Of a stretch of 64,000 nt of DNA, positions 22,774 through 51,698 are shown one piece after another. Position 1 is the first letter of the stretch, and every line of letters starts with the position of its first letter. The stretch is taken from positions 10,378,183-10,442,182 of the forward strand of contig NC_133117.1 of assembly GCF_022965805.1 (NCBI RefSeq). Reading direction: 5' to 3'. A program made the translations under genes and the position numbers. The notes below the pieces were generated by a model. The model searched no databases and was not told the origin of the DNA. It saw nothing but the letters and a program-made list of their open reading frames with translations. The stretch is from Primulina eburnea. Taxonomy: Eukaryota > Streptophyta > Magnoliopsida > Lamiales > Gesneriaceae.

Positions 22774-22917
22774 TAAAAAAATGATTATCTAGCTTTACTC
22801 TCATTGCCTGTATATCATTGTCATCGCATGATATATATATCACAAACTGAATCGGAATAAATATCCAAAACTAATAAGTGCCCGACTGAAAAAAGAAAAT
22901 GGGCCCTAGAATTCCCC

Positions 22918-23303: not shown

Positions 23304-23339
23304 AGATAGTAAAAAAGGAGAAGTGTTTGTTAATTCAAC

Positions 23340-23723
23340 ATGTCAAGTTCAAGTGAATTCAGCGACTGCAGGAGCACAGTTTCCTCCATTGGTGCACACA
23401 GTCAAACACCAGCCGAGCTACGTCCTTATGTGGCAACTCTTAAAAGAACGATTGAAGAGTATATTGAGGTAAAGGTTATGTCCACTTGGTACAAGATCCA
23501 AGATATTGGTATTGCGTACCAGAATGGCTTGGCCCTCAACCGCGCACAAAGGGCAGTGGCAAGGAAGTATAGGCGAGATCTAAGAGTAGCTCACGTTGCA
23601 GACCTCGCCACTGACCAAGTTCTGATGCACGCGATGCTGTGGAAGGAATCAACTGAACAAGCTATCGCTATCCGAGTCTTTTTCCAATCTTCTCGTCCCA
23701 AAAATAACAGATTGGATAGTTGA
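23340..23723 (+). CDS. Antisense accessory ORF B of the Tat element
   Basis: 127 residues, with a Ser-rich N-terminus (MSSSSEFSDCRSTVSS) followed by helices: LKRTIEEYIEVKVMSTWYKI, then LNRAQRAVARKYRRDLRVAH, VADLATDQVLMHAMLWKES. Blocks shared with ORF B' of the copia element (46095-46517) are KVMSTW-KI, RAQ, a KY pair, V-HV-DL--D and AMLWKE. The C-terminus is shorter than B' and may be truncated by a frame change near 23690: another frame there continues ITDWIVEWKDYVASRLAQM, like the W-rich tail of B'. It has its own TATA box. No domain assignment or function can be given. Confidence 0.72.
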   Translation: MSSSSEFSDCRSTVSSIGAHSQTPAELRPYVATLKRTIEEYIEVKVMSTWYKIQDIGIAYQNGLALNRAQRAVARKYRRDLRVAHVADLATDQVLMHAMLWKESTEQAIAIRVFFQSSRPKNNRLDS

Positions 23724-23849
23724 ATGGAAAGATTATGTGGCCTCCAGATTGGCACAAATGTAATACCATAGTTAATATCTTTCTTTAACAAAAAATATAC
23801 TTGGTTTATCTCCGTTTTTACTTTATTACCAGCGTTCAGACTATAGATA

Positions 23850-24005
23850 AAGTGCCGGGGTCTCAAACATCACGGGCTAAAAATGAGATACCGGAGCCTC
23901 AAACCTCCCGGACTGTAAATAAGATGCCGGGGCCTCAAACCTCCGGGGCTGTAAATAAGATGTGGGGGCCTCAAACCTCCCGAGCTGTAAATAAGATGCC
24001 GGGTA
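23850..24005 (+). repeat. 38-39 bp tandem repeat array, about four copies
   Basis: The unit is about GATGCCGGGGCCTCAAACC followed by TCCCGGGCTGTAAATAA, repeated at 23851, 23890, 23928 and 23966 with small changes, then a partial copy. It sits directly after ORF B. The apparent ORF across it is a by-product of a unit length that is near a multiple of three. Confidence 0.8.
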
Positions 24006-24194
24006 GTCCAAGGGGTGTCACAAGAACGCGTGTCCTCTCCTAAGACGGTCAGAAACGTTTCATTTTTTGAGGAGTTGATAAGTCTGACAACTTAATCATT
24101 GCATGCGTCCTTTCACCTATCCGCACACTTTCCGAGGTTCAGCTCTACCGTTCTATTTGATTCATATTAACGGTGTAGATTAGATTTCCTCTTC

Positions 24195-24202
24195 TATAAA
24201 TT
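24195..24202 (+). promoter_or_regulatory. Putative TATA box of the third antisense gene
   Basis: TATAAATT in the context TTCTATAAATTTTGGG lies about 180 bases before the ATG at 24384, allowing a leader of about 150 bases. Confidence 0.5.
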
Positions 24203-24383
24203 TTGGGCGCTCCAATTCCAGAAATTAATTTCGAATTCGAAACTCCGGCGAAGCCCTTGCAAAAAATTTTCTGGAAGCTCTTCTGTGCCAACTCCTCCCT
24301 CTCTGGTGAATCTCCGCTACTACGACCACCTACGACCACTTCTTTTTAAATCGTAAGTCTTTGTTCTTTTGTTTTCCCAAAAT

Positions 24384-26652: not shown

Positions 26653-26890
26653 AGTAGGATTGTTAATTTTGTATTTCTTCTTTTTTTTTGTAATGTTTGG
26701 CCTCCGAGCTGTCTTTAATGAAAACTTCCCCATTCCTTTTTAACAATGTCTTGAGCTTCTCGTTTATTCTTTGAAAATCGAATAATACCATTGGTTTTAT
26801 GAAAACAACCACAAAATATTCTAAGTATTGAGATCTAACCGGGAATCTTGATAAGTGATCGGGATGATAAACTTTTAAATCAGGAGTTAT

Positions 26891-27764
26891 GAATGGTTAA
26901 GCGCGCTCCCCAAGCCAGGGTGTAGTGCCCTGGGCTTTTTAAGAACCAAGGTGCGGAGCCTTGGGCCGGGAAGCATGTCCCGAGACTTGTGAATGGTCGA
27001 GATACGGAGCCCCGAGCTAGGGCGTAGTGCCCTGGGCTTTTTAAGAACCAAGGTGCGGAGCCTTGGGCCGGGGAGCATGTCCCGGGACTTGTGAATGGTC
27101 GAGGTACGGAGCCCCGAGCCAGGGTGTAGTGCCCTGGGCTTTTTAAGAACCAAGGTGCGGAGCCTTGGGCCGGGGAGCATGTCCCGGGACTTGTGAATGG
27201 CCGAGGTACGGAGCGCCGAGTCAGGGTGTAGTGCCCTGGGCTTTTTAAGAACCAAGGTGCGGAGCCTTGGGCCGGGGAGCATGTCCCGAGACTTGTGAAT
27301 GGTCGAGGTACGGAGCCCCGAGCCAGGGTGTAGTGCCCTGGGCTTTTTAAGAACCAAGGTGCGGAGCCTTGGGCCGCGGAGCATGTCCCGGGACTTGTGA
27401 ATGGTCGAGGTACGGAGCCCTGAGCCAGGGTGTAGTGCCCTGGGCTATTTAAGAACCAAGGTGAGGAGCCTTGGGCCGGAGAGCATGTCCCCGGGACTTG
27501 TGAATGGTCGAGGTCTGGAGCCCCGAGCCAGGGTGTAGTGCCCTGGGCTTTTTAAGAACCGAGGTACGGAGCCTTGGGCCGGGGAGCATGTCCCGGGACT
27601 TGTGAATGGTCGAGGTACGGAGCCCCGAGCCAGGGTGTAATGCCCTGGGCTTTTTAAGAACCAAGGTGCGGAGCCTTGGGCCGGGGAGCATGTCCCGGGA
27701 CTTGTGAATGGTCGAGGTACGGAGCCCCGAGCCAAGGTGTAATGCCCTGGGCTTTTTAAGAACC
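26891..27764. repeat. 102-bp tandem repeat array, about 8.7 copies
   Basis: Unit starts occur near 26891, 26991, 27093, 27195, 27297, 27399, 27502, 27604 and 27706. The unit contains GAATGGTCGAGGTACGGAG, CCCTGGGCTTTTTAAGAACC, GGAGCCTTGGGCCGGGGAGC and ATGTCCCGGGACTTGT, with about 95% similarity between copies by eye. It lies between the end of pol (27861) and the end of the antisense gene (26652). Because 102 is a multiple of three, long minus-strand frames stay open with a 34-residue repeat, but this is probably incidental. Tandem arrays in this position are typical of Tat/Ogre elements. Confidence 0.93.
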
Positions 27765-27860
27765 GTTTTTCCTCAATTTTAAGATACGAGAGATAATATA
27801 ACACTTCTTCTTCGAGAAAAATAGATCTTTTATTATATCTTCACCAAATGATTACATCTG

Positions 27861-29147
27861 TCATGAGTAATACTTCTTTAAATTAAATACATTCCAAGGC
27901 CTTTTGAGATAATGTCCTTGGGCATCTTCTAAGTAAAAGGATCCCTAACTAACTCTCCGGGTAATTTTATAGGGTCCTTCCCATCGAGCCTCTAATTTTC
28001 CTACATCTCATGCCGAGTTAACTTTCTTCATAACCAGATCTCCTACTTGGAAATCTCGGACCCGGACTCTCCGGTTATAAGATTTCATAACCTTGTTCCT
28101 ATATGCTTCCATCCGAATGGTTTCCTGGTCTCTCTTTTCTTCTACCAGATCCAATTCCATGGCCCGGCTTTGATCGTTCTGACTTGGGTAAGATTCTACC
28201 CGGGAGGAAACTTTCCCAATTTCGACTGGGAGGACCGCTTCAGAACCATATATTAAGCTGAAAGGAGTTTCTTGAGTAGGTTCCCGGGGAGTAGTTCTGT
28301 AAGCCCATAGAACACTAGGTAACTCCTCCACCCAATCTTTTCCTTTACCTTGAAGTCTTGCTTTTAATGCTTGCACAATTATTCTGTTGGCAACTTCTGT
28401 TTGACCATTCGCTTGAGGATATGCGACAGAGGTAAAAGATTGAGTGATTTTCATCTCCTGGCATCATGATGTAATTCTTTTGCCCTGGAACTGTCTTCCA
28501 TTATCCGAGATTAATCTTCTGGGCACACCGAACCGGCACACAATGCTCTTCCACAAGAACTTCAATACTTCCTGCTCGGTGATTTTTGCTAAAGGCTCAG
28601 CTTCAACCCATTTAGAAAAGTAGTCAACAGCTACTAATAAGAATTTCTTCTGAGCCTGAGCAACTGGAAAAGGACCCACAATATCTATGCCCTATTGATC
28701 AAAAGGGCAGGAAGCCCAGATAGGCTTCATGAGAGTGGTCGGGCTGTGGGTGAAATTTGAATTATGCTGACAGCCTTCGCAAGTCTGGACCAACCGAGCA
28801 GAATCTCGTTTTAAGGTTGGCCACCAAAATCCAGCAAGGATCATTTTTCGAGCTAAAGGCATTCCTCCGAGGTTCTCGGCACAACACCCCTCATGAATCT
28901 CTCGGAGAACATAATCCACCTCTTTCTCAATTAGACATTTAAGAAGCGGTCCTTGGAATGATCTCCTGTACAAAATTTTATTTAAGAGGACAAACCTGGG
29001 AGCTTGTCTCTTGATCTTTTGAGCTCGGGCTTTATCCTCGGGGAGCTCATTGTTTGTAATATACGTGATCAGTGGTGTCATCCATGAGTCCTCCGGCACG
29101 GGTGATGCTTCTTCCTCCATGGAGAGGACCAAACGAGTAATGTGCAG
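27861..29147 (-). pseudogene. Tat integrase (with three internal stops)
   Basis: The N-terminal HHCC zinc region appears as CLIEKEVDYVLREIHEGCC and CEGCQHNS; the core has D in VDYFSKWVEAEPLAK and D in LISDNGRQF; the E region is YPQANGQTEVANR; the C-terminus ends WNVFNLKKYYS and TGA at 27861. Stops interrupt at 28689, 28461 and 28005, all in one frame. The integrase inserts cDNA into the genome. Confidence 0.88.
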
Positions 29148-29907
29148 TACTTATCGGGTATTAACTTCTGATAAAGAAGCAGCCATTTTAGCCAAAGAGT
29201 CTGCCTCACTGTTCTCTACCCGAGGTATTTGTTCAATACTCCAATCCATGAAACTTTCTGCTTGGGCTCTAATGAGCTGTAAATATTTAAGCATTCTGTC
29301 ATCCTTAGCCTCATAAATTCCTTTTATTTGTTGAGTGATGAGCTGTGAATCGGAATATAGAATAATTCGGGAAGCTCCAACTTCCCGGGCAGCTCGAATA
29401 CCTACAAGGATAGCCTCATACTCAGCTTCATTGTTGGTTACCCGGGCATCAATTCTTAATGCTAATTTGATCTTTTCTCCCAGGGGCGATACCAACACCA
29501 CCCCTACTCGACACCCCACCAGGCTAGATGCCCCATCAACCAACACTCTCCATACCTCCTCCTCGCTGGGTTGGATCATTTCTGATAAGAAATCTGACAA
29601 AGCTTGCGCTTTAATGGCCACTCGGGGTTTATACTCGATGTCATATTCTCCCAACTCTACTGACCATTTTATCATTCGCCCGGATATTTCAGAGTGAGTC
29701 ATGATCCTACCCAGAGGACTATTGGTAAGAACAATAACCTGATGCGACAAAAAGTAAGGTCTTAGTTTCCGGGCGGTCATGACCAGGGCCAAAGCAATTT
29801 TCTCCACTTCGCTATACCGGAGTTCAAGCCCCCTCAGAGCGTGACTGACATAATAGATAGGTTTTTGGTCAGTCTTTGCCTCTCTTATTAGAACCGAGCT
29901 GACAACA
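29148..29907 (-). pseudogene. Tat RNase H region with second (archaeal-like) RNase H
   Basis: After the RT connection (VEKIALALVMTARKLRPYFL) comes a complete extra RNase H: D in VLVDGASSLVGCRVGVVLVS, E in NNEAEYEAILVGIRAA, D in ILYSDSQLITQQIKG, and the final acidic residue in PRVENSEADSLAKMA. A dual RNase H is a hallmark of the Tat lineage. Stops at 29907 and 29148 bound this piece; the frame is continuous with RT and integrase. Confidence 0.85.
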
Positions 29908-29909
29908 TA

Positions 29910-32048
29910 CTATGTAGTAGATAGGTAGACATATAATTTTTCTCCGGGTTTTGGTACTAACACAGGGAGCCCTGCAAGATGAATTTTCAAGTCCTGGAAA
30001 GCCTGTTCACATTTCTCATCCCATCCGAATTGCTGGGCCTTCCTTAAGACTTGAAAGAAAGGATAGCTCCGGTGTACTGATCGGGAAATAAATCTGGAAA
30101 GGGAAGCAATTCTCCCGGTTAGCTTTTGTACCTCTTTGACAGATCGGGGAGATGGCATGCTCAGCACAGATTGGACTTTCTCTTGATTCACCTCAATTCC
30201 CCGGTCTGTCACGATGAATCCCAAGAACTTGCCACTTTTCACGCCAAAAATACATTTGGCCGGATTAAGCTTGATTCCATAATGCATGAGAGTGGCAAAA
30301 GTTTCTTCTAGATCATTAATAAAGCTGGCGCCCTCCCTGGATTTAGAAAGAATATCATCCACATAGACTTCCACGTTCCGTCCCAATTGTTTCTCAAAGA
30401 CTTTGTTCATTAGATGCTGGTAAGTTGCCCCTGCATTCTTCAACCCGAAAGGCATTACAATATAACAAAATGTACCTCCCGAGGTGATGAAGCTGGCTTT
30501 ATCTTGATCACACTTGGCCAAGGGGATTTGATGATACCCCTGGGACGCGTCCATGAAGCTTAACAACTCGAAACCTGATGTGGAATCCACCAATTGATCA
30601 ATGCGGGGTAGGGGATAATGGTCCTTGGGACAGGCCTTGTTAAGATCGCGGAAGTCTACGCACATGCGTCACATTCCGGTGGATTTGGGCACCAAGACCA
30701 CATTCGAAAGCCATGTAGGGAATTGAATTTCCCGAATGTGGCCAGCTTTCAGAAGCTCACTTACTTGCACATCACTCACTTTGTCCTTTTCAGGGCCAAA
30801 GTGCCTCTTTTTTTGTTTTACCGGGCGATATCCTGGGAGGAAGTTCAATTGGTGTTCCGCTATCAAGGGAAAAATCCCTGTCAACTCCTGTTGAGACCAG
30901 GAAAACACACGAATATTAGTTTTTAAACAGTTAATCAGACTAACCCGGGTGGATATATCGAGATCTCGGGCCACCCGGATTTGCTGGCCTGGTCCAACTT
31001 CTATTGCTTCTTGCTCTTCTTCCGCCACAAAATGCACCTCTCCTCTCCCGATCATTCTTTCTCCTTCCCCGTCCACCCTTGCCTTTTTCTCCTCCCTCCT
31101 ATTCTTGCTCCGATCTGCCTTAACCACCTCCACATAGCACTTCCGAGAATATGGCTGATCTCCCCGAACTTCTCCTACTCGGGTTCCCACGGGGAACTTT
31201 ATTTTCTGATGGTAGGTGGATGCCACGGATCTCAGCTCGTTCATGGCCGGTCTCCCCAGAATGATATTGTACGATGATGGGGAGTCCACCACGGTGAATG
31301 AGGTCATCACCGTCTTTTTGAAATCATGGGAACCCAGGGTTAATGGCAAAACGATCTCCCCTTCTGGGTACACCACATGGCCAGCAAAACCGAAAAGGGC
31401 CGTTTCCACAGCCTCCAAATGATAGCCCTGCAAATCCATCTGCATAAAAGCGTCTTTAAAAATTACATTCACAGATCTGCCCGAGTCCACTAAGACTCGG
31501 AGTATATCATAATTTGCCACTCGGGCTTGGATCACCAGGGCATCGTTGTGGAGCAGATTCACCCCTCTCAAATCTTCGGGGCCAAAACTGATGACCGCCT
31601 CATTCCTTCTTGCTCCTTCCACCTCCAAACACTCCCTCCTACTTCTCGACTTCATCGCCCAGTTGGAATCTCCATCAGTGGAGCCTCCAGATATCATTTT
31701 AATGAACCCCGTAGCAGGGGGCGAGTTCTTCTTTCTCTCGGGCTCAGGCTCCCTTCTTCTAGCGGGCTCAATCCTCGGGAAATTCCTCACACTTCCTCCC
31801 CGGGCGCCGGATCCTGGTGGCCGAGATGTCCAAGGTGGCATTCTTGGCCTCTGGCTATTGTTACTGGGTCCCGGGATGGAAGGTGAGACATAATTCCCCT
31901 TCAGTGCCTTGCAATTTTCAGTGTTATGGTGGCACACTTTGTGAAAAGAGCAAAATCCGCTCTTTTCTGGCCGAGATAACTGATGATCCGGGGCCAAATC
32001 TCTGCTGCACTCCTGCACTTCCCTCTCTCGAGCAATTTTCAGAGGCAC
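29910..32048 (-). pseudogene. Tat gag C-terminus, protease and reverse transcriptase
   Basis: On the minus strand: a zinc-knuckle-like CSFHKVCHHNTENCKALK near 31940, the aspartic protease LVDSGRSVNVIF near 31480 (DSG active site), the RT N-terminus (LKAGHIREIQFPTWLSNVVL) near 30730, then RT core with FMDASQGYHQIPL and EVYVDDILSKSREG near 30350. A TGA at 30666 replaces the Trp expected before RMCVDFRDLNK. The frame is the same as gag and integrase. Confidence 0.9.
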
Positions 32049-32075
32049 GTGGTGAGAAAAGTGCCCTGTATTGCC

Positions 32076-33086
32076 TCACTTCTGTCCCCTCTCCTCGGGT
32101 TTAGACACCCGGTCTCCTTTTTCCTTTCTCACAGCCTCCCTCTTCTGCTTCTGGGCCTCCTCCATATTGATATATTTTTCTGCTCGTGACAATAGATCCT
32201 CGAAATCTCCCGGCACCTTCTTAGTAAGTGATTTGAAGAACTCGCCCTCTCTCAAACCCTGGGTGAATGCAGTAGTCTTGGTTTCAGTGGCACAAGTAGG
32301 AACGTCTAGGGCCACTTTGTTGAATCTTCTGATATAGGCCCTTAAACTTTCTTCCGAGCTCTGTTTAACTTCAAAAAGACTAAAAGCAGTCTTTTTGTAC
32401 TTTTTACTGCTGCTAAAATGGTGTAAAAAAACCTTCTGGAAATCTCCAAAGGAACTGATACTTTGGGAAGTCAAGCCCTCGAACCACCTCTGAGCTGAAT
32501 CTACCAGTGTTGTTAGGAACACCTTGCACTTGATTCTATCAGTGTAACAGTGCAACATGACCATATTTTCAAACCTGGCCAGGTGTTCCTCCGGGTCTGC
32601 ATTGCCATCATAGTCTTTTACCTTCACAGATTTGAAATTTCCAGGAAGAGGTTCCCGGACAATGATATCAGTAAACGGGCATCCTTTCGGGACTGCCCGG
32701 GAATCGCTCGGATTTTCCAACTGTCCTTCCAGGACCTTCATCTTCTGCCTTAATTCAAACAATTCCTCTGCCACGGTAGGAGATTTGGACCCGGCGCTGG
32801 ATTCCTCATCTTCTCCTGCCATCTCATTCTCCTTTCTCCCCTGCTCCTGCTCCTGCTCAAACCCCTGTTCATGTCCCTGTTTATCACCGGGTGGTGTAAC
32901 AGGATGGGAGACCTCCTTCTTGGTCATAGCTTGCACGATGGCATCAGCCATCATTTTCTTTAACTCTTCAGGGGTCAGGGTAATGAGGTTTGGTCCGGTG
33001 TTATTAGCACCAGTTTGTCTCGAAGTCTGTCCACCATCACCCTGGGCGTGCGAATTATCCTGGTTGGTTCTTCTCGTACGAGCCAT
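32076..33086 (-). pseudogene. Tat gag
   Basis: 336 residues from ATG at 33086, only 24 bases from the primer site. The N-terminus is polar with Glu/Gln-rich stretches; the retrotransposon gag domain spans about residues 150-300 (KVFLTTLVDSAQRWFEGL, SSFGDFQKVFLHHFSSSK, SLRAYIRRFNKVAL). A TAG/TGA-type stop at 32073 separates it from the rest of gag-pol, which continues in the same frame with GNTGHFSHHVPLK. The single frame suggests a gag-pol fusion of about 1,740 codons before the mutations. Confidence 0.88.
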
Positions 33087-33110
33087 ATCAACGTCTCGAA
33101 CTCAGATATT

Positions 33111-33127
33111 CCCACAGACGGCGCCAA
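33111..33127 (-). other. Primer-binding site of the Tat element
   Basis: On the minus strand TTGGCGCCGTCTGTGGG directly abuts the 5' LTR end at 33128. This is the usual primer site of Tat/Retand-type elements. Confidence 0.75.
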
Positions 33128-33784
33128 TTATAAGATCTCGTTGAAATGGATGAACCGGGTACGGGGCTCCAACGGACCAAATCAATAATTTATAGTATTT
33201 GGGAATTTGAGTGAAGATAATGGCTTAGAACAACACCTGCAAAAAAGAGAGTAACTCGTGAATGGGCGCCGGAGGGATGTCCGGCGTGGCCATTCCGATG
33301 CTTAAGTCAGCGGGCTTTTTTAGATGAACACAAGCAATATTGGAGGGAAAATATGTAAAATGCCCTTAGTTCCAAGATTTCAGAATCATTAAATGAGATT
33401 AATACCTGCTATTTATAGTGGAAGAGTGGGTAGTTACCTCGATTATCACACCACCTACTAAGTCGGTTTACCATACTAGCTTCTGATGACTTCTCGGACA
33501 CTTCAAACCCAAGTTGTTCTGACAGATTGGACTGACTGCATAGATTATACTCGAGTGGGGTTCATATCTCGAGGTGGTGCAGTTCTCGAGGTTGTCCAAG
33601 TGGTAATGTAATCCGGGAATCCTGCCCGGGAAGCTGAGAAACGCCCGGATGGTTCCATGAGGGCGCTGGCTGTTGGTAAAAGAGCTCGGGTAAAGCCATG
33701 ATTTTCTACCCGGGTGATCTTGATCTCGGCTATCTAAGTAACAAATTGGGTCAATGCTGACTCGAATCATAAATGGGGGTATCA
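33128..33784 (-). repeat. 5' LTR of the Tat element
   Basis: Same length as the left copy, 657 bp. The second base of the window-left end is changed (TTATAAG against TGATAAG). The right end GGGTATCA is followed by the target duplication CCACA and then P5CR exon sequence. Confidence 0.92.
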
Positions 33785-39776: not shown

Positions 39777-40750
39777 TGTTGGAAACTAGATTCTGGAGTT
39801 TGACAAAACATGAATCAATCGATTAACAAAATATGAATCAACTGATACGCGCAAGCAAATTCGGCAACGGAACTAATCAACTGAAATCAGCTGATACAAT
39901 GATACAAAGTAAACTGATCAGTTGGAACTAATCAGTTAAAACATTCAGCCGAATGCCTAAAAAGTCTCTCAACTGAAGATGTCTCGGGAAAGAACAAAGA
40001 AGACATAACAGATTACAAGAGCGCCGCACAACAACCAAGACTACTTAAAACAATGCATTCCGGACAAAGCAATCAAGACACCGAATTAAAATAAATGAAG
40101 CAAACAATGTCGAAGGAATAATCAAGTGGAAACCAACGGATACAAAGATTCAAATTTATCTCAATATTACCGTTGGAAAAGAAGAGTATAAATATGGCAG
40201 AAGAAAAAGAAGAAATAACGATCACTCAATCTTAAACTTGATGTTACTCTGTCAAAATCTTAGCTCACTCTCATTTGAATTATTCGTAGTAATCAAGGCT
40301 ACAATCTGAACTTATTAGCACTCTGTAAAAGTTGTTAGATTCAATTGTGCTAATATCAGTTACGCACTGAGAATATTGTGCAGAACTAAGAGTTTCAGTT
40401 TTGGCAGTAGTAAGTCCAAACTGAAGTGGGTTTGCACAAGTATTGTACTTGATCAAAGTCTTTTAGTGAATGTCCTATCCTTGTGATAGAAGGGGTGACG
40501 TAGGAGTAATTAAATTCTCCGAACATCCAGAAACAACTCTTGCATATTTCTTTCAGTTTCGTATTCTATCTTTCAGTCAGTTAATTTCCGCAACTACTCT
40601 AGTTTAACTGATTGTTATTGACCAACAAGATTCCAAGATTCAGTTTGTCACCAAACTGAACTCAAATATTATTAAAAAACAATTTTAATTGTAAGTGTTT
40701 ATTCAACCCCCCCTTTCTAAACACTCTTGTTACGACAACCGATCCTATCA
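39777..40750 (+). repeat. 5' LTR of the Sirevirus-like element
   Basis: It begins TGTTGGAAACTAG and ends CGATCCTATCA. Fourteen copies of TCAGTT or its complement AACTGA occur in 974 bases. A TATA-like AGTATAAATATGGCAG is at about 40185. Confidence 0.93.
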
Positions 40751-40752
40751 AG

Positions 40753-40764
40753 TGGTATCAGAGC
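40753..40764 (+). other. Primer-binding site (initiator Met-tRNA)
   Basis: Exact TGGTATCAGAGC two bases after the LTR end at 40750. Confidence 0.92.
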
Positions 40765-40810
40765 GGTTGAATCTTGTTCTTGAATACTTCTGATCTATAA
40801 ATCTGCTAGC

Positions 40811-42775
40811 ATGACTTCATTCAATAAAATTCCTATGTTCTCAAGAGAAGATTTCGATGACTGAAAAATCAGAATGCAGGCTCACTTAGCTGCACAAGAT
40901 GATGACATGTGGTATGTCATAACAGACGGACCCATGAAGATTCTAAAAGCAAACACAACAATTGCCATAACTGAAGGAGCACCACAGAGAATTCAAAAGC
41001 CCAGAGAATAGTGGACAACTGAGGACAAAAGAAAAGCCAATCTTGACAATGTGGCCAAAGATACTCTGTACAAAACACTGGACAAAGCAACATTCAACAA
41101 AATAAAGATGTGCAAAACAGCAAAAGAAATTTGGGAAAAGTTGATTCATTTATATGAAGGAAATGACCAAACAAAAGAAAATAAACTCTCTTTTGTTGTT
41201 CAGAAATTTGACAATATCAAAATGAAGGTTGGAGAATCAATGAATGAGTATGATGAAAGGGTGAGCAGTATTTTCAATGAATTAAATGCACTTGGAAAAG
41301 TGTATACAAACAAAGAAGTTGCACTGAAAGTTATGAGAGGCCTTCCAAAGGAATGAGATGTCAAAACTATGGCCATGAGAGAGTGTAAAGACTTAAACCA
41401 GATCGAACTTCATGATCTATTCGCTGATTTAAAAGCTTATGACTTTGAATTGCAGAACAGAGAAAGAGAACCATCTACTCCTACTCCTACAACTGCTTTA
41501 GCAGCTGTCAGAACTGAACCAACCAGTTCAGCCAAGAAATCTGCTGATCAGTTAAGCAATGATGCTATGTCTTTATTCATCAAAAAGTTTGGGAGGTTCA
41601 TGAGAAAGAACCAAGGAAACTTTCAGAAGCAATACCAGAGAAATAATTCCAAAGAAGAAACAAATGCTTGCTACAATTGTGGCAAAACAGGTCATTACAT
41701 TGCTGACTGTCCTAAACCTAAAAAGGACAGTCAAGGATCAACTGACAGAAGAAAGAAATCACATGAGCATAAGAGAAGACCCAGAGATGGTAAGAAAATC
41801 TACAGAAAGAAACATGAGGTTCTATTAGCTGAAGAGAACAAATCCAAATGGGCAGAAACTGATAGTGACGAATCAGAACCAGAAAGCTCATATAGCTCAA
41901 GTGATGAAGAGGAAGTCAAATGTCTAATGGCCAATGATACAGAAGCAGAATCTACAAGTCAACAGGTATTTGATTTTAGTTCAACTGATTTTACACGAGA
42001 AGTTTTCATTTTAACATTGCATGAAATGGTAAATGAGTACCAAAAACTTGCATCATCATTTGAGGAAATAAAGTCAAAGCAAAATGATCCCATGGACAAT
42101 AAAACCAAAACTGATGAATCAGTTGATGGGCTGAGTCTAAAAAGAGAAATTTCTGAGTTAAAAGCAGAGAGAAAGAAAGATCAGTCACTGATCCAGAAAT
42201 TGATCCTTGAAAATTCAAAACAGACTGAACTCATTCAATCTTGGAATAAATCGTCTACTGCACTGAATGAGTTGCAGAATTCACAAAAATCAGTTTCTGA
42301 TAAAACTGGTTTAGAGTTCCGTAATCAAGGAGAAACGTTTTCAAATTATACTCAACCAAAGCTGACAATGAACAAAGGGAAGTACATTCACTTTGTCAAA
42401 TCAGCAGTGGTACAAGAACAAATTGAGCCCAGTAAACTGATTGAACAACCTACTGAGAAGTTGAACAAGGCTAGAAGATATGAGATTGGCTATAGTCAAA
42501 AGCTTTCAACTAATTCACAAAGCGGGTCATCAAAAAGATTTCACAAAAACTATTCGAATGGCTATATCAATTACTATAACTGCAAGCCAGTTCAGAAGAG
42601 ATACAGATTGAACAATCAGTTGAATAAGACTAAAACACATACTTTATCATCTGTACAATACTCACCAAGCACACAAAAGCCGAGAAAAACCATTTGGAAT
42701 ACAGCTACTGGAAAGTCAGTTAAACTAATCCAAGTATGGGTTCCAAAGGGACTAATAAGTTTTGGACCCAAATAG
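40811..42775 (+). pseudogene. Sirevirus-like gag with three stops
   Basis: Start ATG at 40811 (MTSFNKIPMFSREDFDD). The copia gag region (WEKLIHLYEGNDQTKENKLS) is followed by a Lys-rich zone with the CCHC knuckle CYNCGKTGHYIADC near 41670, an acidic Ser-rich stretch, a coiled-coil zone near residues 430-480 and a basic tail ending GLISFGPK. In-frame stops are at 40862 (TGA, Trp expected before KIRMQAH), 41009 (TAG) and 41354 (TGA, Trp expected before DVKTMAMRE). At about 655 codons it is long for copia gag, as in sireviruses. Pol lies in the next frame. Confidence 0.88.
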
Positions 42776-45700
42776 ATATGGGTACCAAATCATATTATGT
42801 GTGTGCTTGCAGGTAACAGGTACAAATAAAAATTCAATATGGTATTTGGACAGCGGTTGCTCACGACATATGACAGGAGATGCAAGTATGCTATCTCAAC
42901 TGACCAAATATAGTGGTCCAAACATCAGTTTCAGAGATAATTCCAAAGGTAAAACCGTGGGTAAGGGTAAGCTTATCCCTGGTAACTTTACTATTAAAGA
43001 TGTTTTATTAGTAGATAATCTGAAGTATAACTTGATTAGCATCAGTCAGTTATGCGACAATGGATTCTCGGTACAATTTGATAAAATCTCATGCTCAGTT
43101 AAAGCATCAACTGATGAAATCATACTAACTGGCAAACGATGTGGAAACACATATAAAGTCAGTTGGAATGAACAGCCTCATTCACCAGTATGCTTTATTG
43201 CTTCAAAATCATCTCAAAACTGGTTGTGGCATAAAAGGTTAAATCATCTAAACTTTAAATCCATTGCCTATCTGAGTAATCATGAACTTGTAACTGGTTT
43301 GCCCAAAATAAATTTTTCAAAAGAAAAACTTTGCTCAGCATGTCAGTATGGAAAACAAGTACAATCTTCTTTCAAAAACAAGGGCTGTAAATCTTCGTCC
43401 CGATGCTTAGAACTATTGCACATGGATCTCTTCGGTCCAATACCAGTCATGAGCTTAGGGGGAATGAAATACACCTTGGTGGTCGTAGATGATTTTTCAA
43501 GATTTACCTGGGTTATCTTTCTCAAATCCAAAGAACATACGGCTGCACAACTGATCAAACTCTTTAAAAGACTTTTAAATGAAAAATCAGTTGGGATTGA
43601 TCGAACAAAATCTGATCGAGGAACTGAATTCATAAATCAAACACTTTCAAGCTTTCTAGAAAATGCTGGAATCAGGCATGAGCTCTCAGCAGCAAGAACT
43701 CCTTAGCAAAACGGTGTAGCTGAGAGAAGAAATCGAACCCTTAAAGAAGCTGCTAAAACAATGCTTGCTGATTCTCGTATTTCTCAAAGATTTTGGGCAG
43801 AAGCAGTAAACACTGCATGTTATACTCAGAACAGATCAATGATTAATAAAAATCATATGAAAACACCATATGAGATCTGGCATGGAAGAAAAAGTATAAT
43901 CACTTATTTCAAAATATTCGGCTGTAGATGTTTTATTCATGTTAATGGTAAAAATTACTTAAAAGCATTCGATGCCAAATCTGCAGAAGGAATATTCCTT
44001 GGATATTCATCAGTTAGTATAGCTTATAGAGTCTTTAATAAGAAAACTTTAAATGTTGAAGAATCTGCGCATGTTGATTTTGATGAAACTGTACTAACTG
44101 ATGAGCCAACTGATCAAGTTGAGCTAGCTGATCGATTTACAGATATCAGTTTGGAAGATGATGACAAAGATGGAAGTCATAATGATCAAAACATCTTTCA
44201 AACACCAGAACCAGAGATATTAGATCAATTAAATGAGCAGGAAGTCAATGCTGACAATCAGTTATTAAATCAAACTGATAACATTCAAATACCAGCTGAC
44301 AAGGCATCAACTGAAGCTGAAAACTGCATTCAGTTACCAACTGAAGAAGTTGCTGATGCAACAAATGCAGAGTACAGATGGAGAAAATCACATCCACCAC
44401 AACTGGTAATAGGAAATCCATCTGACCCAGTAAGAACTCGCAATCAAATGTTAAATTTATTTATTCATTCAGCCTTTGTCTCACAAATGGAACCAAAGAA
44501 AACTGATGAAGCTCTTGCTGATCCTAACTGGGTAAATACTATGCAAGAAGAGCTGAATCAGTACACTCACAATAACGTCTGGAACTTAGTTCCAAGACCA
44601 ACTTCAAAAACCATTGTAGGTACAAAATGGGTGTACAGGAATAAACTTAACGAGGACGGTTCAGTTATACGCAACAAAGCAAGACTAGTAGCACAAGGAT
44701 ATAGGCAAGAAGAAGGAATTGACTACGATGAGACGTATGCTCCAGTTGCAAGATTGGAAGCAATCAGAATATTTCTTGCTTATGCATCTCACAAAAACTT
44801 CAAAGTTTACCAGATGGATGTGAAGAGTGCATTCCTAAATGGTCAGTTACAAGAAGAAGTATATGTTGAACAACCTCCAGGTTTTGTAAATCACAAACTT
44901 CCTGATCATGTATACTATTTGAACAAAGCATTATATGGTCTTAAACAAGCTCCCAGGGCTTGGTACGAAACTCTTTCAAAATTCCTAACTGATCATGACT
45001 TTACAGTCGGATCAGTTGATAAGATCTTGTTCAAATTTACTAAAAATAATCATATTCTATTAGTTCAAATTTATGTTGATGACATAATATTTGGGTCAAC
45101 TAACCCCAAATTGTGCGAAAAATTAGCTAAGTTAATGCAGGACAAATTCGAAATGAGTATGATGGGTGAACTGACATTTTTTCTTGGACTGCAAGTGAAG
45201 CAACTGGAAACTGGTATATTCATTAGTCAAACAAAATATACAAAGGAGTTGCTAAAGAAATTTGGTATGGAATCATGCTCAGCTGCAACTACTCCCATGA
45301 GCTCATCAGTTAAACTAGATACTGACGAAGGGGAAATATCAGTAGAGGTGACATTATATAGAGGATTAATAGGTTCATTGTTGTACCTAACAGGCAGTCG
45401 ACCTGATATTGTTTTTGCTGTCTGTATGTGTGCCAGATTTCAAGCAAATCCTAAGCAATCACATTTCTCAGCTGCTAAAAAAATTCTGAGATATCTTAAG
45501 GACACGCAAAATGTTGGGCTATGGTATTCCAAAGACTCCACCTTCAATTTAGTTGTATATTCAGACGCAGATTATGCAGGATGTAAGCTTGATTGCAAAA
45601 GTACAAGTGGATCTTGTCAGTTCTTAGGAGACAGACTGATCTCTTGGTTCAGCAAGAAGCAGACATCCATAGCTACCTCAACAACAGAAGCAGAATATCT

Positions 45701-45980
45701 TCCTGCTGGTAGTTGTTGTGCACAACTGATCTGGATTCAGCAACAACTGAAGGATTATGGAGTAACGTCAACTGAATCGCCCATATTTTGTGATAATACC
45801 AGCACAATTGCCATCACTTATAATCCAGTTCTTCACTCAAGGACCAAGCATATAGATGTCAGGCATCACTTCATTAGGGATCATGCGTTAAAGAAGGATA
45901 TTCGACTAGAATATATTTCAACTGAACAGCAAGCAGCTGACATCTTCACAAAACCATTACCCGAGGCTAAGTTTTCTTAA
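42762..45980 (+). pseudogene. Sirevirus-like pol with one stop
   Basis: About 1,070 codons in one frame. Protease: WYLDSGCSRHMTG near 42845. Pre-integrase: LWHKRLNHLNFKS and CSACQYGK. Integrase: HMDLFGPIPV and KSDRGTEF (the family usually has SDHGTEF) and [37 protein letters not shown] and [10 protein letters not shown]. RNase [38 protein letters not shown] and [16 protein letters not shown] at 43707 replaces the Gln of the integrase motif TPQQNGVAER (CAG to TAG). Otherwise the reading frame is open. It overlaps the end of gag by 14 bases in the +1 frame. Confidence 0.93.
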
Positions 45981-46094
45981 TTTCGAAATATTCTTGGTTT
46001 AATTGATTTATCTTAGAAATTATTAGTAATATTGCTTCACTAACAGAATTATATGCAGAAAATAAGAACACAACAAATTGAAAATAACACTTCA

Positions 46095-46517
46095 TTAAGA
46101 ATACCAACGTTCCCATTTTACAGAAGATATCATGGAATCAACTGAATCTAGACACGCCCTAACCCAATCATTTAACTCATAAATTCGAACTCTTGAAAAT
46201 GCCCTAGATTTCGAAATCTTATCAACAACATGCCACTCCTTCCATAGCATCGCCTCCAAAAGACATTTGTCTTCAACCAAATCCCTAACATGTCTAACTT
46301 CAAAACGTTCAAGGTATTTCAGTGCTCTTGCCTCCTGAGCACGAGTAGGAATAGCACCACTGTCACTCACCCTCTTCAACTCATGAATCTTTTCCCATGT
46401 TGACATCACCTTCTGAAAAACATATATCTCCATATTTCTCTTGATATTTTTTAAACGAGGGGTTGACTGCTCAGTAATATGAACATGAGTGCTGCTGCAT
46501 GCATCAGAATCAGACAT
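46095..46517 (-). CDS. Antisense accessory ORF B' of the copia element
   Basis: 140 residues, intact, on the strand opposite to pol and 115 bases beyond its end. Sequence features: MSDSDACSSTHVHITEQ start, then RNMEIYVFQKVMSTWEKIHEL, RAQEARALKYLERFEVRHVR, DLVEDKCLLEAMLWKEWHVV and a W-containing tail LNDWVRACLDSVDSM. KVMSTW-KI, RAQ, V-HV-DL--D and AMLWKE are shared with ORF B of the Tat element. TATAAATA is 52 bases upstream (46569-46576) in nearly the same context as in the Tat copy. The frame is free of stops although gag, pol and the 3' sense gene of the same element are not. Function unknown. Confidence 0.78.
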   Translation of the reverse strand: MSDSDACSSTHVHITEQSTPRLKNIKRNMEIYVFQKVMSTWEKIHELKRVSDSGAIPTRAQEARALKYLERFEVRHVRDLVEDKCLLEAMLWKEWHVVDKISKSRAFSRVRIYELNDWVRACLDSVDSMISSVKWERWYS

Positions 46518-46568
46518 ATTGAAATATTTTTGAACTGATATTGCATCACATTTTTATCACTATCATCT

Positions 46569-46576
46569 TATTTATA
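46569..46576 (-). promoter_or_regulatory. TATA box of ORF B'
   Basis: Minus-strand TATAAATA in CCTATAAATAAGATGATAGT, upstream of the ATG at 46517. CTCTTCAGCTTCTCC lies just upstream, and a similar GACTCTTCAGCTTTCT lies upstream of the A' TATA box. Confidence 0.7.
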
Positions 46577-46830
46577 GGAAAATGACGTTGGAGAAGCTGA
46601 AGAGTCTCAAGTCAATTAATGCGTCTTTCACATTTACCAAGGACTTTAAGTTATCAGTTGTTCATTGTCAACTGACACTTGTTTGAATTCTGTTAATAGT
46701 TGTTTAAATAGTCCCAGTTCATGATCAACATATGACAGTTAGTTTCTCATCATATAATTTGTTTACATATCACAACTGATGAAATATATTATTTGCAAAA
46801 AAACAGAGTTAAAATCAGATAAATATTTCA

Positions 46831-47229
46831 TTACTTATAAATGTTGGTCTGGATTACATCATCATACTTCTTCTCCACAACAATTATCCAAATTTTCAAC
46901 CAAACAGATAGAGAAGAAGGAGCAGTCATGCGAAAGCTATGAGAATGAGCTATGCACCTCAGGATCTTCAATTCCTTGCGGAGCATCAGCTGATACATGT
47001 GATCGTCCTTGAAGACGTCCACCCACACAGCAATATTCAAGTGCTTTCGCACTTGATTCAGTTCTACCACCAATTCAGGAGTGGTGGCCTCTCCAGAGTT
47101 GTATAAGAGCTCAAGCTCCTGTAATCGCTCCCAGTAATGCAGACTTTCATAGAAGACTTCGTCTTCTATCTCGGCCTTCCTGGCCTCCACAGAAAAGCGA
47201 GAAAGACTTGAGTCACCTGTATCAGACAT
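46831..47229 (-). CDS. Antisense accessory ORF A' of the copia element
   Basis: 132 residues, intact, antisense to the element, upstream of B' in its own direction. It starts MSDTGDSSLSRFSVEARKAE and continues IEDEVFYESLHYWERLQELE, LLYNSGEATTPELVVEL, VFKDDHMYQLMLRKELKILR and CIAHSHSFR. It aligns over its length with ORF A of the Tat element (22351-22773) with the same spacing of conserved blocks. The first three residues MSD are shared with B', which fits a common ancestor. TATAAATA lies 47 bases upstream. No recognisable domain; function unknown. Confidence 0.78.
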   Translation of the reverse strand: MSDTGDSSLSRFSVEARKAEIEDEVFYESLHYWERLQELELLYNSGEATTPELVVELNQVRKHLNIAVWVDVFKDDHMYQLMLRKELKILRCIAHSHSFRMTAPSSLSVWLKIWIIVVEKKYDDVIQTNIYK

Positions 47230-47275
47230 TTTTTAATGTTTTGGAAGATATGTCTTAAACTAGTTGAGCCATTTC

Positions 47276-47283
47276 TATTTATA
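47276..47283 (-). promoter_or_regulatory. TATA box of ORF A'
   Basis: Minus-strand TATAAATA in GCTATAAATAGAAATGG, 47 bases before the ATG at 47229. Confidence 0.68.
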
Positions 47284-47603
47284 GCATAATATCAAGAAAG
47301 CTGAAGAGTCATCAACGTTTCAGCAAAACCAATAACCTCTATGACTCTTAAAATTATTTTGTAGCACTACTTTAATTATTATATGCACCAATCTAGGGGG
47401 AATGTCAGTTTTTAAAGAAGTTAACTGGGAAGACAATCGTTTGTGAATTCTCAACTGACTTGAATCAGTTTCCCAACTGATCGTTCAGTTTGAAAATTTT
47501 ACAAATCTTCTCACATAAGTTAACCAATTAAAAACTTATTATATTCCAAATCAAATGACGTGACTAAATTTTTATGACGTGGCATATTTTAAAACCGCTC
47601 ATT

Positions 47604-47676
47604 ATTATATACACACGATTACAGCACACGTGCACACATTTTTATTCAAAAAATATCCCGGGCTGACACGTGTCCA
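47604..47676 (+). promoter_or_regulatory. Putative promoter of the 3' sense gene, with G-boxes
   Basis: TTATATACACACG at about 47606 is TATA-like; CACACGTGCAC (about 47624) and GACACGTGTCC (about 47664) carry the CACGTG core bound by plant bZIP/bHLH factors. It lies in the divergent gap between A' and the sense gene at 47814. Function inferred from motifs only. Confidence 0.35.
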
Positions 47677-47813
47677 GAATTTGAACAGTCACGAACAAAA
47701 GCATTTTGCCCGCTTCATTTCAGTTTTATTCTTCAAAATTACAATCAGTTTCTAAGAGTATACAAATTTCAGAACTTATTCTCTTCAATTTGCAGATCAC
47801 TACACTTTCCGAA

Positions 47814-50545
47814 ATGGCAAACCAGATCCCAGCCCATATTTTGAATGCGATGGTCATCGATTTTAACTCGGTTCTATCGATTCAAGAAGCAGAAATTAAG
47901 AATGTATTCCTAAAGCTTGAGTCGGCAGGTCTCAGGATGTTATTAGGACAATCTTCTCAGAAGATATACCTCAAGGAGGTCAATGAATTCTATCGGAAGG
48001 GATTTATCACTGCTAATGACACTATCTCTGTTACTATTAAAGATCAGTTGCTACTCCTTTCTGAAGAAGCTTTCGGAGAAATCTTCTCTCTGCCAACTGA
48101 TGGTTATGTCAGCTTTTCTGAAGTAAAAACTCAGGATATTGAAGAAATGCAGTCTTGATTATCTGTTGATGGACGGAAAATCAAGGTTTCCGATCCAAAG
48201 AAGGAACTGAAACCAGAAATTCAGTTGTTAGCTGATATCGTGGCAAAGGGAATATTAGCAAAAGCCGGTTCTTATGCTGGTCTTACACTCGAAAATTTCC
48301 AGGTAATGACCATAATCATGGGTGAAAAGAAAGCAAATTGGAGATATATTCTTTTTAACATCTTGAAGAATATGCTCAAGTCATCCAAACAGTCATGTGG
48401 CTTTGCCATCCAAATCAGTTATCTGTTAAAACTGAAGGGTTTGGTAGCTGAAAATGCTGAAACATCATCAAAATTCAAGGTCTTTACTGCCAAAAACACC
48501 TTGCCATCAAAAACGAAACCAGAGGTTGAGCCATCACCAGTCAAGAAGGCCAAAACAACAAAAAGGAAACTGATTCTCAGTGAATCAGATTCAGAGAAAA
48601 CTCCTTCCCCTAAGCTTGTCAAGAGACCAAGGACTCAAAGAACCAAACCAATAACAACAGTGGAAGACATTCCACCTGAGAAAATTATTCAATCAGCTGC
48701 TCAACAGCCCATTCAAGCTATCCCCTTGCAAGTAGTCTCACCTGATGATTCAGTTACCAAAGCTAAGACACCAGCTAAGGTAAGAGCTCCCTTGACTCTT
48801 GTAAATCGCCCTACCATCCTGCCTAGAGCCAGATCTAAAGGAGTAATATTAAGGGAACCAGTGCACTCCACACATTCTGGAATGGATCTTCCTCACATTC
48901 TCTCAACTGACAAAGGAAAAGGCAAGCTGGTTGAAGAATCCCGGCCATCCAATGTCATTCAAACACACATTGACCTAGTTTGGGAACAGGTCAATACATT
49001 TGCCACATCACAATTAAAATCTTTCGATTGTTTGGAAAAGCTTCAGAACAGAAATCTTTGCCAAAGAACTGAAGCATAGATCTCAACTGAAAAAGTTCAT
49101 CAAGCTAGAAGCGATTGTGATGAAAGTAGTCAAAGCTGCTACAATTCCACAGGCATTAGAAAGGCAGAAATATTTCTTTGATCAGATTCGCGTCAAAAAT
49201 CTAACAAGAATGGTAGCAAAGCTGAAGTCCAACTACAATCCAACAAGTCCAACTGCATACAATGATAGAGCTGTGTTCACTCAATTGGACACGGATCTTA
49301 GTAGTCTGCTGAGTGAAATCAGATTTTGGGAAAAAGATCAGGAACTAGTTCTTCAAGACAAACCCCCCAACTCAAATACTGAAAAAGATTTATCCTCCTC
49401 TCCACAAAAAGAACCATCTCCACAACAGGCAACTGAAAATCCAGTTCAGGGAACGCCTCATTCCTCTCAGACAGAACATCAGCTATATTTTGAAGCAGAA
49501 CTATCCTTGGCAAACATTGATGAAATCATTCAAGCTGTTACCTTGGAAGCTCAGCTAGAGGGAATACATTATGACTCAGTTACCCATTTAGCTGAACAAC
49601 CAGAGCAAGACATTAAGAAATCATCTGAAGCACCAGCTGAGTCACTTATTGCTGAAAAACTTATATCTGCTCAAACTGAAGATCAAACTGAAGTGCCAAA
49701 CCAAACTTCAGAAAAAAAATAACTGAATCGGAAAAAGCTCAAACTGAAGCACCAGTTCAGCCAGAAAGTTCTGCTGAACAAGACATTCAAACTGATGAAC
49801 AATCAAAACCCTCAGAACAAGAAACTGCTGAACATGTATAAGGTCAGTTGCTCACCGAATCAAAGGAGCAAGAACAATGTTCAGTTAATTCTCCACAGGA
49901 GGCCCCTATGTATGAACCATCCATCTCCATCATTAAGCCAGACAGTCCATTTCTTGATCAAAGCCAACGTTCATCATCTCAAATTCAAGAAAACATTCCA
50001 GCTCAGCCTATCAGCCTATGGCTGGAACAATGGAAACTAATCAAGTATTAGTTCTTTTTGGACAAACATCGAAGCATTCAGAAACGACAAGTCAGCGCCC
50101 TCCAATTCAATCCACAGAAATGGATGTTGTGCTTGAAGAAATCCAGAACATACAGTACAATATGCAGCAGATGCTCGCTGAAATCAAGAAAATTCAATTA
50201 GAACAACTGTCTCATACTGTCAAATTAGATTCTTCGACTGAATTTGACTCGGCAAAACTAAACGCTCTTCAAGCCAACATGAATTCTCTTAGCAGAACTG
50301 TGCGTGAAATAAAGAAGGGGCTAGCTAACTCACTCTTTATAACTCAGGATGTAATCAGTCAGAGAGTTGAGCGACTGGAAACCTCTGTCTCAAATAAAAT
50401 AGAATTGCTGCAGACCTCCCTCACAACTGTTGCCACAAGTATCTCATCAGATGTAAAACTTCTTTCCATTGACGCTCGAAAGTTATCAGATAAAATGGAG
50501 TTGTTTGACAAAAATGGGGAAGAACAGCAGCTGAAGAAGAATTAA
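47814..50545 (+). pseudogene. Sense gene in the env position of the copia element (N-terminal globular, low-complexity middle, coiled-coil C-terminus)
   Basis: Start ATG at 47814 (MANQIPAHILNAMVID). Residues 1-200 form a compact region (VLSIQEAEIKNVFLKLESAG, EEAFGEIFSLPTDGY) that I associate with unnamed proteins abundant in Lamiales genomes; that link is from memory. It is followed by a Lys/Pro/Ser-rich stretch (KKAKTTKRKLILSESDSE), a Glu/Gln/Thr-rich low-complexity zone and a C-terminal coiled coil (LNALQANMNSLSRTVREIKK, RVERLETSVSNKIELL) ending at 50545. A TGA at 48156 and frameshifts near 49050, 49715 and 50010 break it. I see no signal peptide or membrane span, so 'env-like' would be a statement of position only. 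Confidence 0.6.
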
Positions 50546-50712
50546 TGCAGCAGAAGAAGAATTAATCAGATTATTAGAATCAACTGATATTATATTCTCA
50601 GATTTTATGTTATCTACAAGGAATCCAGTTATTTTATGATTCAGTTGCGTAATCTATTATCAACAAAGAGCTCAGTTATTTGATCTTAAACCACTTGGTT
50701 TTGTCAAACACC

Positions 50713-50726
50713 ATAAAGGGGGAAAT
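50713..50726 (+). other. Polypurine tract of the Sirevirus-like element
   Basis: ATAAAGGGGGAAAT lies directly before the 3' LTR. Confidence 0.8.
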
Positions 50727-51698
50727 TTTTGGAAACTAGATTCAAGAGTTTGACAAAACATGAATCAATCGATTAACAAAATATGAATCAACTGATACGC
50801 GCAAGAAAATTCGGCAACTGAACTTATCAAATGAAATCAGCTGATACAATGATACAAAGTAAACTGATCAGTTGGAACTGATCAGTTAAAACATTCAGCC
50901 GAATGCCTTAAAAGTCTCTCAACTGAAGATGTCTCGGGAAAGATCAAAGAAGACATAACAGATTACAAGAGCGCCGCACAACAACCAAGACTACTTAAAA
51001 CAACGCATTCCGGACAAAGCAATCAAGACGCCGAATTACAATAAATGAAGCAAACAATATCGAAGGAATAATCAAGTGGAAACCAACGGATACAAAGATT
51101 CAAATTTATCTCAAGATTACCGTTGGAAAAGAAGAGTATAAATATGGCAGAAGAAAAAGAAGAAATAACGATCACTCAATCTTAAACTTGTTGTTACTCT
51201 GTCAAAATCTTAGCTCACTCTCATTTGAATTATTCGTAGCAATCAAGGCTACAATCTGAGCTTATTAGCACTCTGTAAAAGTTGTTAGATTCAATTGTGC
51301 TAATATCAGTTACGCACTGAGAATATTGTGCAGAACTAAGAGTTTCAGTTTTGGCAGTAGTAAGTCCAAACTGAAGTGGGTCTGTACAAGTGTTGTACTT
51401 GATCAAAGTCTTTTAGTGAATATCCTATCCTTGTGATAGAAGGGGTGACGTAGGAGTAATTAAATTCTCCGAACATCCAGAAACAACTCTTGCATATTTC
51501 TTTCAGTTTCGTATTATATCTTTCAGTCAGTTGATTTCCGCAACTACTCTAGTTTAACTGATTGTTATTGACCAACAAGATTCCAAGATTCAGTTTGTCA
51601 ACAAACTGAACTCAAATATTATTAAAGAACAATTTTAATTGTAAGTGTTTATTCAACCCCCCTTCTGAACACTCTTGTTACGACAACCGATCCTATCA
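50727..51698 (+). repeat. 3' LTR of the Sirevirus-like element
   Basis: Begins TTTTGGAAAC (the TG start changed to TT) and ends CGATCCTATCA, followed by the target duplication CATTA. Confidence 0.93.

Follow-up and report, generated by a model that had tools for sequence, protein, structure and literature searches.

Small antisense genes of one protein family in Retand-type Ty3/gypsy elements and Sireviruses, with apparent changes of host element

We found that two small genes, A and B, lying antisense downstream of pol, belong to a protein family that is present both in Retand-type Ty3/gypsy elements and in Sireviruses (Ty1/copia), in a 64,000-nucleotide stretch of Primulina eburnea DNA (the window) as well as elsewhere in the source genome. 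As judged from the sequence trees, the family shows at least two changes of host on the A tree and one on the B tree. The Ty1/copia and Ty3/gypsy superfamilies parted very long ago. We consider it reasonably probable that A and B are members of one small-protein family, serving both superfamilies as exchanged accessory genes with a trans-acting role directed at the host, namely at its silencing.

The first host element lies at 39777..51698 (forward strand) and has LTRs at 39777-40750 and 50727-51698 (97.1% identical) and the target-site duplication (TSD) CATTA; the exact LTR ends and TSDs of this element and of the second one were set by eye from the sequence. Copia gag, integrase (rve) and RVT_2 domains were identified with Pfam. 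According to the accessible text of PMC2829016, Sireviruses carry the junction motif CA-A[TG]TGG-TATCAGAGC and the polypurine tract (PPT) AGGGGGAG, located 10 bp upstream of the 3′ LTR, ending in A in ToRTL1 and Tnd-1, and present in several copies in the linker (3–5 per linker in its table). The 5′ LTR/PBS junction of the window element reads CA-AGTGG-TATCAGAGC (40749-40764), and AGGGGGAA, a PPT of the ToRTL1 type, occurs at 50717, that is, 10 bp upstream of the 3′ LTR (50727), within an inverted repeat read by eye (GTTTTGTCAAAC / GTTTGACAAAAC). The linker contains two PPT copies only (50717 and 47395), and a third is found inside pol. Judged by its domains, its 5′ junction and the inverted repeat around the terminal PPT, this host is a structurally complete Sirevirus with its own LTRs and TSD. 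It also contains a sense extra ORF in the env-like position (47685..50545, forward strand) that is broken by stops in the window copy; the available part of the REXdb paper (Neumann 2019, PMC6317226) gives such an ORF, eORF-3′F, for 74% of SIRE elements. The dN/dS of this ORF was 0.12–0.20 against the five divergent copies that have it in view (0.13–0.20 for the four of them among L009–L013), and a sequence comparison revealed no similarity between it and TRP28.

The second host element (21267..33784, reverse strand) is flanked by LTRs at 33128-33784 and 21267-21923 (97.6% identical) and by the TSD CCACA. Its gypsy RVT_1 domain is followed in the next frame by RT_RNaseH (residues 3–89) and RVT_3 (residues 134–243; Pfam), so that the RH-then-aRH order of Retand/Tat elements is found. 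The integrase (INT) was recognised by eye in the frames after RNase H; a Pfam scan covering one INT frame returned no match. Downstream of B, an antisense ORF (24357..25370, forward strand) weakly matches Transposase_28 (TRP28, PF04195; E 1e-4, 22.9 bits against a cut-off of 26.2), and the element contains a 102-bp tandem array. An antisense TRP28 ORF and nearby tandem repeats have been described for Retand (accessible text of PMC11963269), and the window element, with its weakly matching TRP28-like ORF, resembles those Retand elements that carry antisense ORFs (aORFs). By its structure, the host of A and B is a Retand-type Ty3/gypsy element that is complete and has LTRs and a TSD of its own.

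A (22351..22773, 140 aa) and B (23340..23723, 127 aa) lie on the forward strand of the Tat element, the pol of which is on the reverse strand, whereas A′ (46831..47229, 132 aa) and B′ (46095..46517, 140 aa; 114 bp past the pol stop) lie on the reverse strand of the Sirevirus, the pol of which is on the forward strand. All four have an ATG start and a frame open to the stop at these coordinates. The preliminary description had paired A with A′ and B with B′, proposed a comparison with shuffled sequences, and noted the same gene order, antisense and downstream of pol, in both elements; the order and position are as it described. Smith–Waterman alignment (BLOSUM62) gave scores of 246 for A/A′ (z 36.7; best of 1000 shuffles, 65) and 164 for B/B′ (z 24.8; best of 1000 shuffles, 73), each thus exceeding every shuffle. 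A and A′ are 51% identical (110 codons; non-synonymous difference 0.32, synonymous difference 0.81, saturated), and B and B′ are 42% identical (93 codons; 0.41 and 0.74, respectively). The A and B sides also resemble each other (A/B′ z 15.8, A′/B′ z 9.2, A/B z 8.5, B/A′ z 8.4; each score reached by 0/1000 shuffles), and are therefore paralogs. In a tree of seven sequences, the two sides part with a support of 100 and each includes one window copy from the copia element and one from the Tat element, which places the duplication before the sharing. The recognition of two paired genes and of their coordinates and open frames thus held, while three points had been overlooked: the paralogy of A and B, the sharing of the B promoter, and a further, separate host change of A. 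In addition, B of the Tat copy seems to be disrupted near its C terminus: a weak match to B′ goes on in a different frame (23653-23760; tblastn E 0.046), and the database relative P0003 has the full C end.

We compared the regions upstream of the four genes, each of which is preceded by a TATA box. The B promoter region (23219..23339, forward strand) contains TATAAAT 44 nt before the ATG and a GGTAAATGGGAAAACG box, and the B′ promoter region (46518..46660, reverse strand) contains TATAAAT 59 nt before the ATG and a GGTAAATGTGAAAGACG box. About 100 nt are alike between these two regions, comprising the block CCTATAAATAAGAT and a GGTAAATG-GAAA-ACG box (score 64; 0/2000 dinucleotide shuffles reached it, maximum 42). 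In the A′ promoter region (47230..47320, reverse strand), TATAAAT lies 54 nt before the ATG and a GACTCTTCAGCTT block is shared with the B′ promoter (A′/B′ score 43; 2/2000 dinucleotide shuffles as high). The A promoter region of the Tat element (22285..22350, forward strand; TATATAT 59 nt before the ATG) showed no similarity to that of A′ (1972/2000 dinucleotide shuffles as high). It is accordingly the promoter of B, and not that of A, that both superfamilies have in common. When the upstream regions of B from two Sirevirus and eight Tat loci were compared, 0/500 simple shuffles were as high in 13 of the 16 pairs, and 27, 43 and 131 were as high in the other three. The TATA box of B′ is kept in the six divergent Sirevirus copies L009–L014. 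Furthermore, a TATA-like box precedes the start by 42–68 nt in 21/21 A genes compared and occurs before B in 16/17 B genes (it is absent from L039); in four of the 17 rows (L010, L012, L013 and L020) the B start point is not an ATG, and the upstream windows are shifted there.

We then surveyed the source assembly (812 Mb), which yielded approximately 4600 first-look candidates per query, the best 150 of which were scored; 116 of the best 150 A′ matches, counted by eye, have no internal stop. Seven divergent Sirevirus stretches (L009–L015) were chosen for low A′ identity, and pol, B′ and A′ occur in the window's order in six of them; the seventh, L015, has A′ and the extra ORF, and neither B′ nor Sirevirus pol. 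Other loci were picked to span identity classes, and the cassette orders are not to be read as frequencies: A then B (L017, L018, L020–L023, L026–L028, L036, L039–L041), B then A (L030, L031, L033, L034), A-B-B (L035, L037, L038), A without B in view (L019, L024) and B followed by the end of a Tat INT (L032). In the Sireviruses L025 and L029, A lies 247–263 nt from pol with no B between them. L016 is the window copy itself. For L019, L024, L026–L028, L032, L036 and L038–L041, the Tat host was seen from pol, INT, TRP28 or ORF26029 in the locus itself, and a Sirevirus host was seen from its pol for L002, L009–L014, L025 and L029 and from the extra ORF for L015, whereas the Tat label of L017, L018, L020–L023, L030, L031, L033–L035 and L037 comes from A or B closeness alone. 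All hosts are from one genome.

Two groups of loci combine an A gene of one type with a host of the other. L025 and L029 have Sirevirus gag-pol (pol pieces 60–86% identical to the window Sirevirus) and an A gene that is 55–57% identical to Tat A, compared with 47% to A′. Conversely, L040 has an A gene 58% identical to Sirevirus A′ and 41% identical to Tat A, together with a Tat-type B, and the contiguous L042 contains Tat gag (75%), PR (53%), RT (78%), RH/aRH (68%) and INT pieces (61 and 72%); by its pol, L040 is a Tat element. L041 is like L040, but its host is known from TRP28 and ORF26029 only, and another copia element is nearby. L040 and L041 had been selected on B class, with their A genes still unseen. 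In the A tree (32 rows), L040 and L041 fall inside the Sirevirus A′ clade (100/100) and L025 and L029 on the Tat side (85/84), so that the host label requires two changes, and forcing the Tat A genes together was rejected (dlnL 56.6, AU test, P = 9.8e-6), with many of the Tat labels resting on similarity alone. Two changes were likewise obtained, and the same constraint rejected, with only host-seen rows without L041 (19 rows, dlnL 55.1, P = 5.0e-6), with 17 host-seen rows without the long rows L036 and L039 (P = 1.25e-5), and with 14 rows in which Tat was represented by the window, L026, L027 and L040 only (P = 5.7e-5). These AU tests were made after the loci had been seen; before L030–L041 were added, single clades of A could not be rejected (P = 0.176 and 0.059), and the later rejection leans on L040 and L041. 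The B tree (35 rows) has one split by host (100/99) and needs one change. Of L001–L008 only L002 was included in the trees, the broken A genes of L035, L037 and L038 stand outside the A tree, and the 'B' rows of L015, L024, L025 and L029 were dropped, being the A gene picked twice. A single Tat/Sirevirus split of A is rejected, and A appears to have changed host family more than once. The position of the Sirevirus rows in two places among the Tat rows suggests the direction from Tat to Sirevirus, although the A tree is unrooted and change counts do not prove direction.

The same rows could also arise if an ancestral cassette held several A and B genes, was shared once, and different copies were kept in different lineages, a possibility that we regard as rather unlikely. 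Multi-gene cassettes do exist (the A-B-B and B-A loci above), and no sharp breakpoint of an A swap was visible in the copies compared, which are too diverged; both of these observations fit such a history. However, none of the opened loci contains both A types together, and the region upstream of A appears, with exceptions, to follow the host rather than the A type. For L040, the A upstream region matched three of four ordinary Tat ones at 0/500 shuffles (the fourth, 28/500), and for L041 all four were matched, whereas the comparisons of L040 and L041 with five Sirevirus ones were chance-like (81–452 of 500 shuffles). For L025 and L029, 4/4 ordinary Sirevirus upstream regions were matched at 0/500 shuffles, compared with 4–375 of 500 in the ten comparisons with five Tat ones, three of which were low (4, 7 and 8). 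The identities in these upstream regions are low (65–74%, against a chance mean of 62% and a 95th percentile of 72%). This tendency suggests that the reading frame was swapped under a resident promoter.

The Sirevirus of the window is rich in the hexamer TCAGTT/AACTGA, with 108 sites in 11.9 kb (9.1 per kb), compared with 25.8 expected from its own trinucleotide make-up; the enrichment ends at the element borders (39777-51698) and is about tenfold above the flanks (0.3–1.1 per kb; Tat element, 0.5). The sites are spread over the LTRs, gag, pol and the extra ORF on both strands, gag-pol contains 42 against 11.5 in synonymous shuffles (0/1000 as high), and pol sites are kept in 123/168 comparisons with six divergent copies, compared with 53% for hexamers of like composition. 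Across these copies, the A′ and B′ ORFs contain 13 sites in 4.7 kb against 36 expected from gag, pol and the extra ORF (P = 8e-6, only a guide because the copies are related), which fits a late arrival of these ORFs, and the A′-B′ spacer is densest (14.7 per kb). The idea that A and B are VANC-like readers of TCAGTT found no support: the window Tat element, which carries A and B, is not enriched, and L025 and L029, with a different A and no B between A and pol, have the same density as the window Sirevirus (9.2–9.5 per kb). Among the matches listed in our literature search, no paper contained this motif together with Sireviruses. The whole Tat element is more weakly enriched in a different motif, C[CT]CGGG/CCCG[AG]G: its gag-pol contains 20 sites, compared with 6.9 after synonymous shuffling (0/1000 as high), and GC content may contribute. 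Elsewhere in the window, we observed another copia element at 1-7700 on the reverse strand (direct repeats 1-500 / 7200-7698, 98–100% identical; gag 3361-4269), an open PPR frame with E and DYW domains (11886-13781), an array rich in GTCGAC/GGTCGA repeats in which several frames are open (53015-54400; GGTCGA, 44 against 4.7 expected in 51699-64000) and a MULE transposase fragment (54982-55548; PF10551, E 7.8e-15).

With regard to function, the preferred reading is that A and B are two branches of one small-protein family that arose by an ancient duplication, and that plant LTR retrotransposons carry them as accessory genes between pol and the 3′ LTR, antisense and with their own promoter elements. 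In this reading the pair was shared together with the B promoter, and A changed host again; the genes would have been moved by recombination between elements that are expressed or packaged together. The proteins would be made from antisense transcripts, and their own promoters would make their output independent of the LTR promoter. They would act in trans on a target that both superfamilies face, not on the gag-pol of one element, and this common target is most likely the host silencing machinery; a function as host-directed accessory proteins of the anti-silencing type seems the most likely one. A is predicted to be acidic and B basic (pI: A 5.8, A′ 5.5, P0001 4.8; B, first 103 aa, 9.2, B′ 8.8, P0002 7.9, P0003 8.8), and the two may pair where both occur. 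Since some elements carry only A, this protein may not need B in order to function. The main rival holds that A and B regulate the transcription or nuclear import of their own element, as has been proposed for gene23 of maize Grande and similar antisense ORFs (accessible text of PMC7264820). It draws on the genes' own promoters, on the block common to the A′ and B′ promoters and on the nuclear localisation reported for the Grande protein (same text), and we consider it a serious but minority possibility: a regulator specific to one element would hardly be expected in a family that serves two superfamilies whose LTRs and gag-pol are unrelated, and the element-wide TCAGTT is not tied to the A/B type.

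Of the two origins offered by the preliminary description, capture or exchange between elements is supported by the complete hosts with TSDs and by the rejection of one split in the A tree. The other, independent capture of one host gene pair, would account for the same pair in two superfamilies, but the order and the B promoter are the same in both, and no relative known as a host gene was found in protein databases or among the best 150 plant-genome matches per query, some of which were opened; this origin is disfavoured and, in our estimation, improbable. A search of 5.8 billion proteins recovered only three relatives, P0001, P0002 and P0003, on short contigs (534, 722 and 1548 bases) beyond which the context is not visible, and with Tat A as the query, none of 14 candidates reached E 1. 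Neither Pfam nor the PDB nor viral folds yielded a clear relative of the family: across seven members, Pfam gave only chance-level matches to BEN (E 0.073) and DCD_N (E 0.1), in one member each and none above the cut-off, and PF04195 matched none of A, B, A′ and B′ at E 1. The better predicted structure, that of P0003, is all-helical (main helices 12–20, 22–55, 62–75, 86–106 and 116–141; pLDDT 84.7, pTM 0.73) and had no clear fold match.

We computed dN/dS by the simple NG86 method between copies, so that the time spent as dead copies is included. For A′ of the window, the ratio was 0.14–0.18 against L009–L013 (dS 0.91–1.15), 0.34 against L014 and 0.41 against L015, compared with 0.13–0.35 for gag and pol pieces of the Sirevirus against L009–L013; by this measure, A′ is constrained like gag-pol in five of the seven divergent copies. 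B′ gave 0.35–0.46 against L009–L013 and 0.19 against L014. The seven close copies L002–L008, at very low divergence, gave 0.21–0.53 for A′ and 0.54–1.02 for B′ (6/7). Within the window's Tat subfamily, A gave 0.05–0.20 (five pairs; dS >1.8, saturated, in two), and other A comparisons gave 0.17 (L040/L041), 0.15 (L031/L033), 0.15 (Sireviruses L025/L029) and 0.47 (L026/L027, dS 0.16), while B gave 0.04–0.24 in six pairs (dS 2.8 in one). As estimated between copies, these ratios show purifying selection on both A and B. That the antisense RNA matters rather than the protein, through siRNA or dsRNA control, is in keeping with an orientation antisense over the element transcript; this explanation is disfavoured by the codon-level constraint (A′ ratios of 0.14–0.18 at dS near 1, and a non-synonymous A/A′ difference of 0.32 at saturated synonymous sites), and we regard it as highly improbable. 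Nested insertion is common in plants, and the preliminary description had named it as a case that would refute its reading. That a fragment of either element simply landed in the other is hardly credible, however, and is refuted as a recent event: each host has its own LTRs and TSD, the nucleotide likeness between the two cassette regions consists of short patches (blastn; best, 99 nt at 70%), the position is kept in six of the seven divergent Sirevirus stretches, and the synonymous sites of A/A′ are saturated.

Several known systems resemble A and B in part; the statements that follow refer to the accessible text of each paper. The TRP28 (PF04195) aORFs of Retand (Vicient 2025, PMC11963269) are likewise antisense, between pol and the 3′ LTR, with tandem repeats nearby; that text mentions no copia homolog of them. 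The additional ORFs discussed by Vicient and Casacuberta (2020, PMC7264820) share with A and B an antisense promoter of their own (Grande gene23) and a proposed accessory role, whereas no pair, paralogy or sharing between superfamilies is described for them there. Retroelement groups of bdelloid rotifers that are unrelated to each other likewise share an extra gene, ORF3 (PMC5408684); it differs from A and B in belonging to animals and to known enzyme types, whereas A and B are a predicted helical pair, antisense and with a shared B promoter. VANC of VANDAL elements (PMC5735166) offers a model of an element-coded, trans-acting anti-silencing factor, but it belongs to DNA transposons and has DUF1985 and DUF287 domains, both absent from the Pfam scan of seven A/B family members, which gave no sequence relation to VANC domains. 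In the literature searched, in which subscription papers mostly fell outside the scope, we found neither A nor B described, nor any antisense gene pair common to copia and gypsy elements.

Antisense extra genes in plant retrotransposons are thus already known, and the accessible texts of PMC11963269 and PMC7264820 give no established function for them. A and B fall below the size limits of the surveys, as far as these are described in the accessible texts: PMC11963269 covers ORFs of at least 600 bp (plus shorter TRP28 ones) and REXdb (PMC6317226) only eORFs of at least 250 codons, whereas A and B, at approximately 380–420 bp (127–140 aa) and with no TRP28 match, are excluded by both. A protein family that crosses superfamily borders would be of use to both superfamilies, and its function may thereby be narrowed to a problem that they share, such as host silencing. 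These results suggest that individual genes pass between superfamilies of plant LTR retrotransposons, and that the trees of accessory genes and of RT need not agree.
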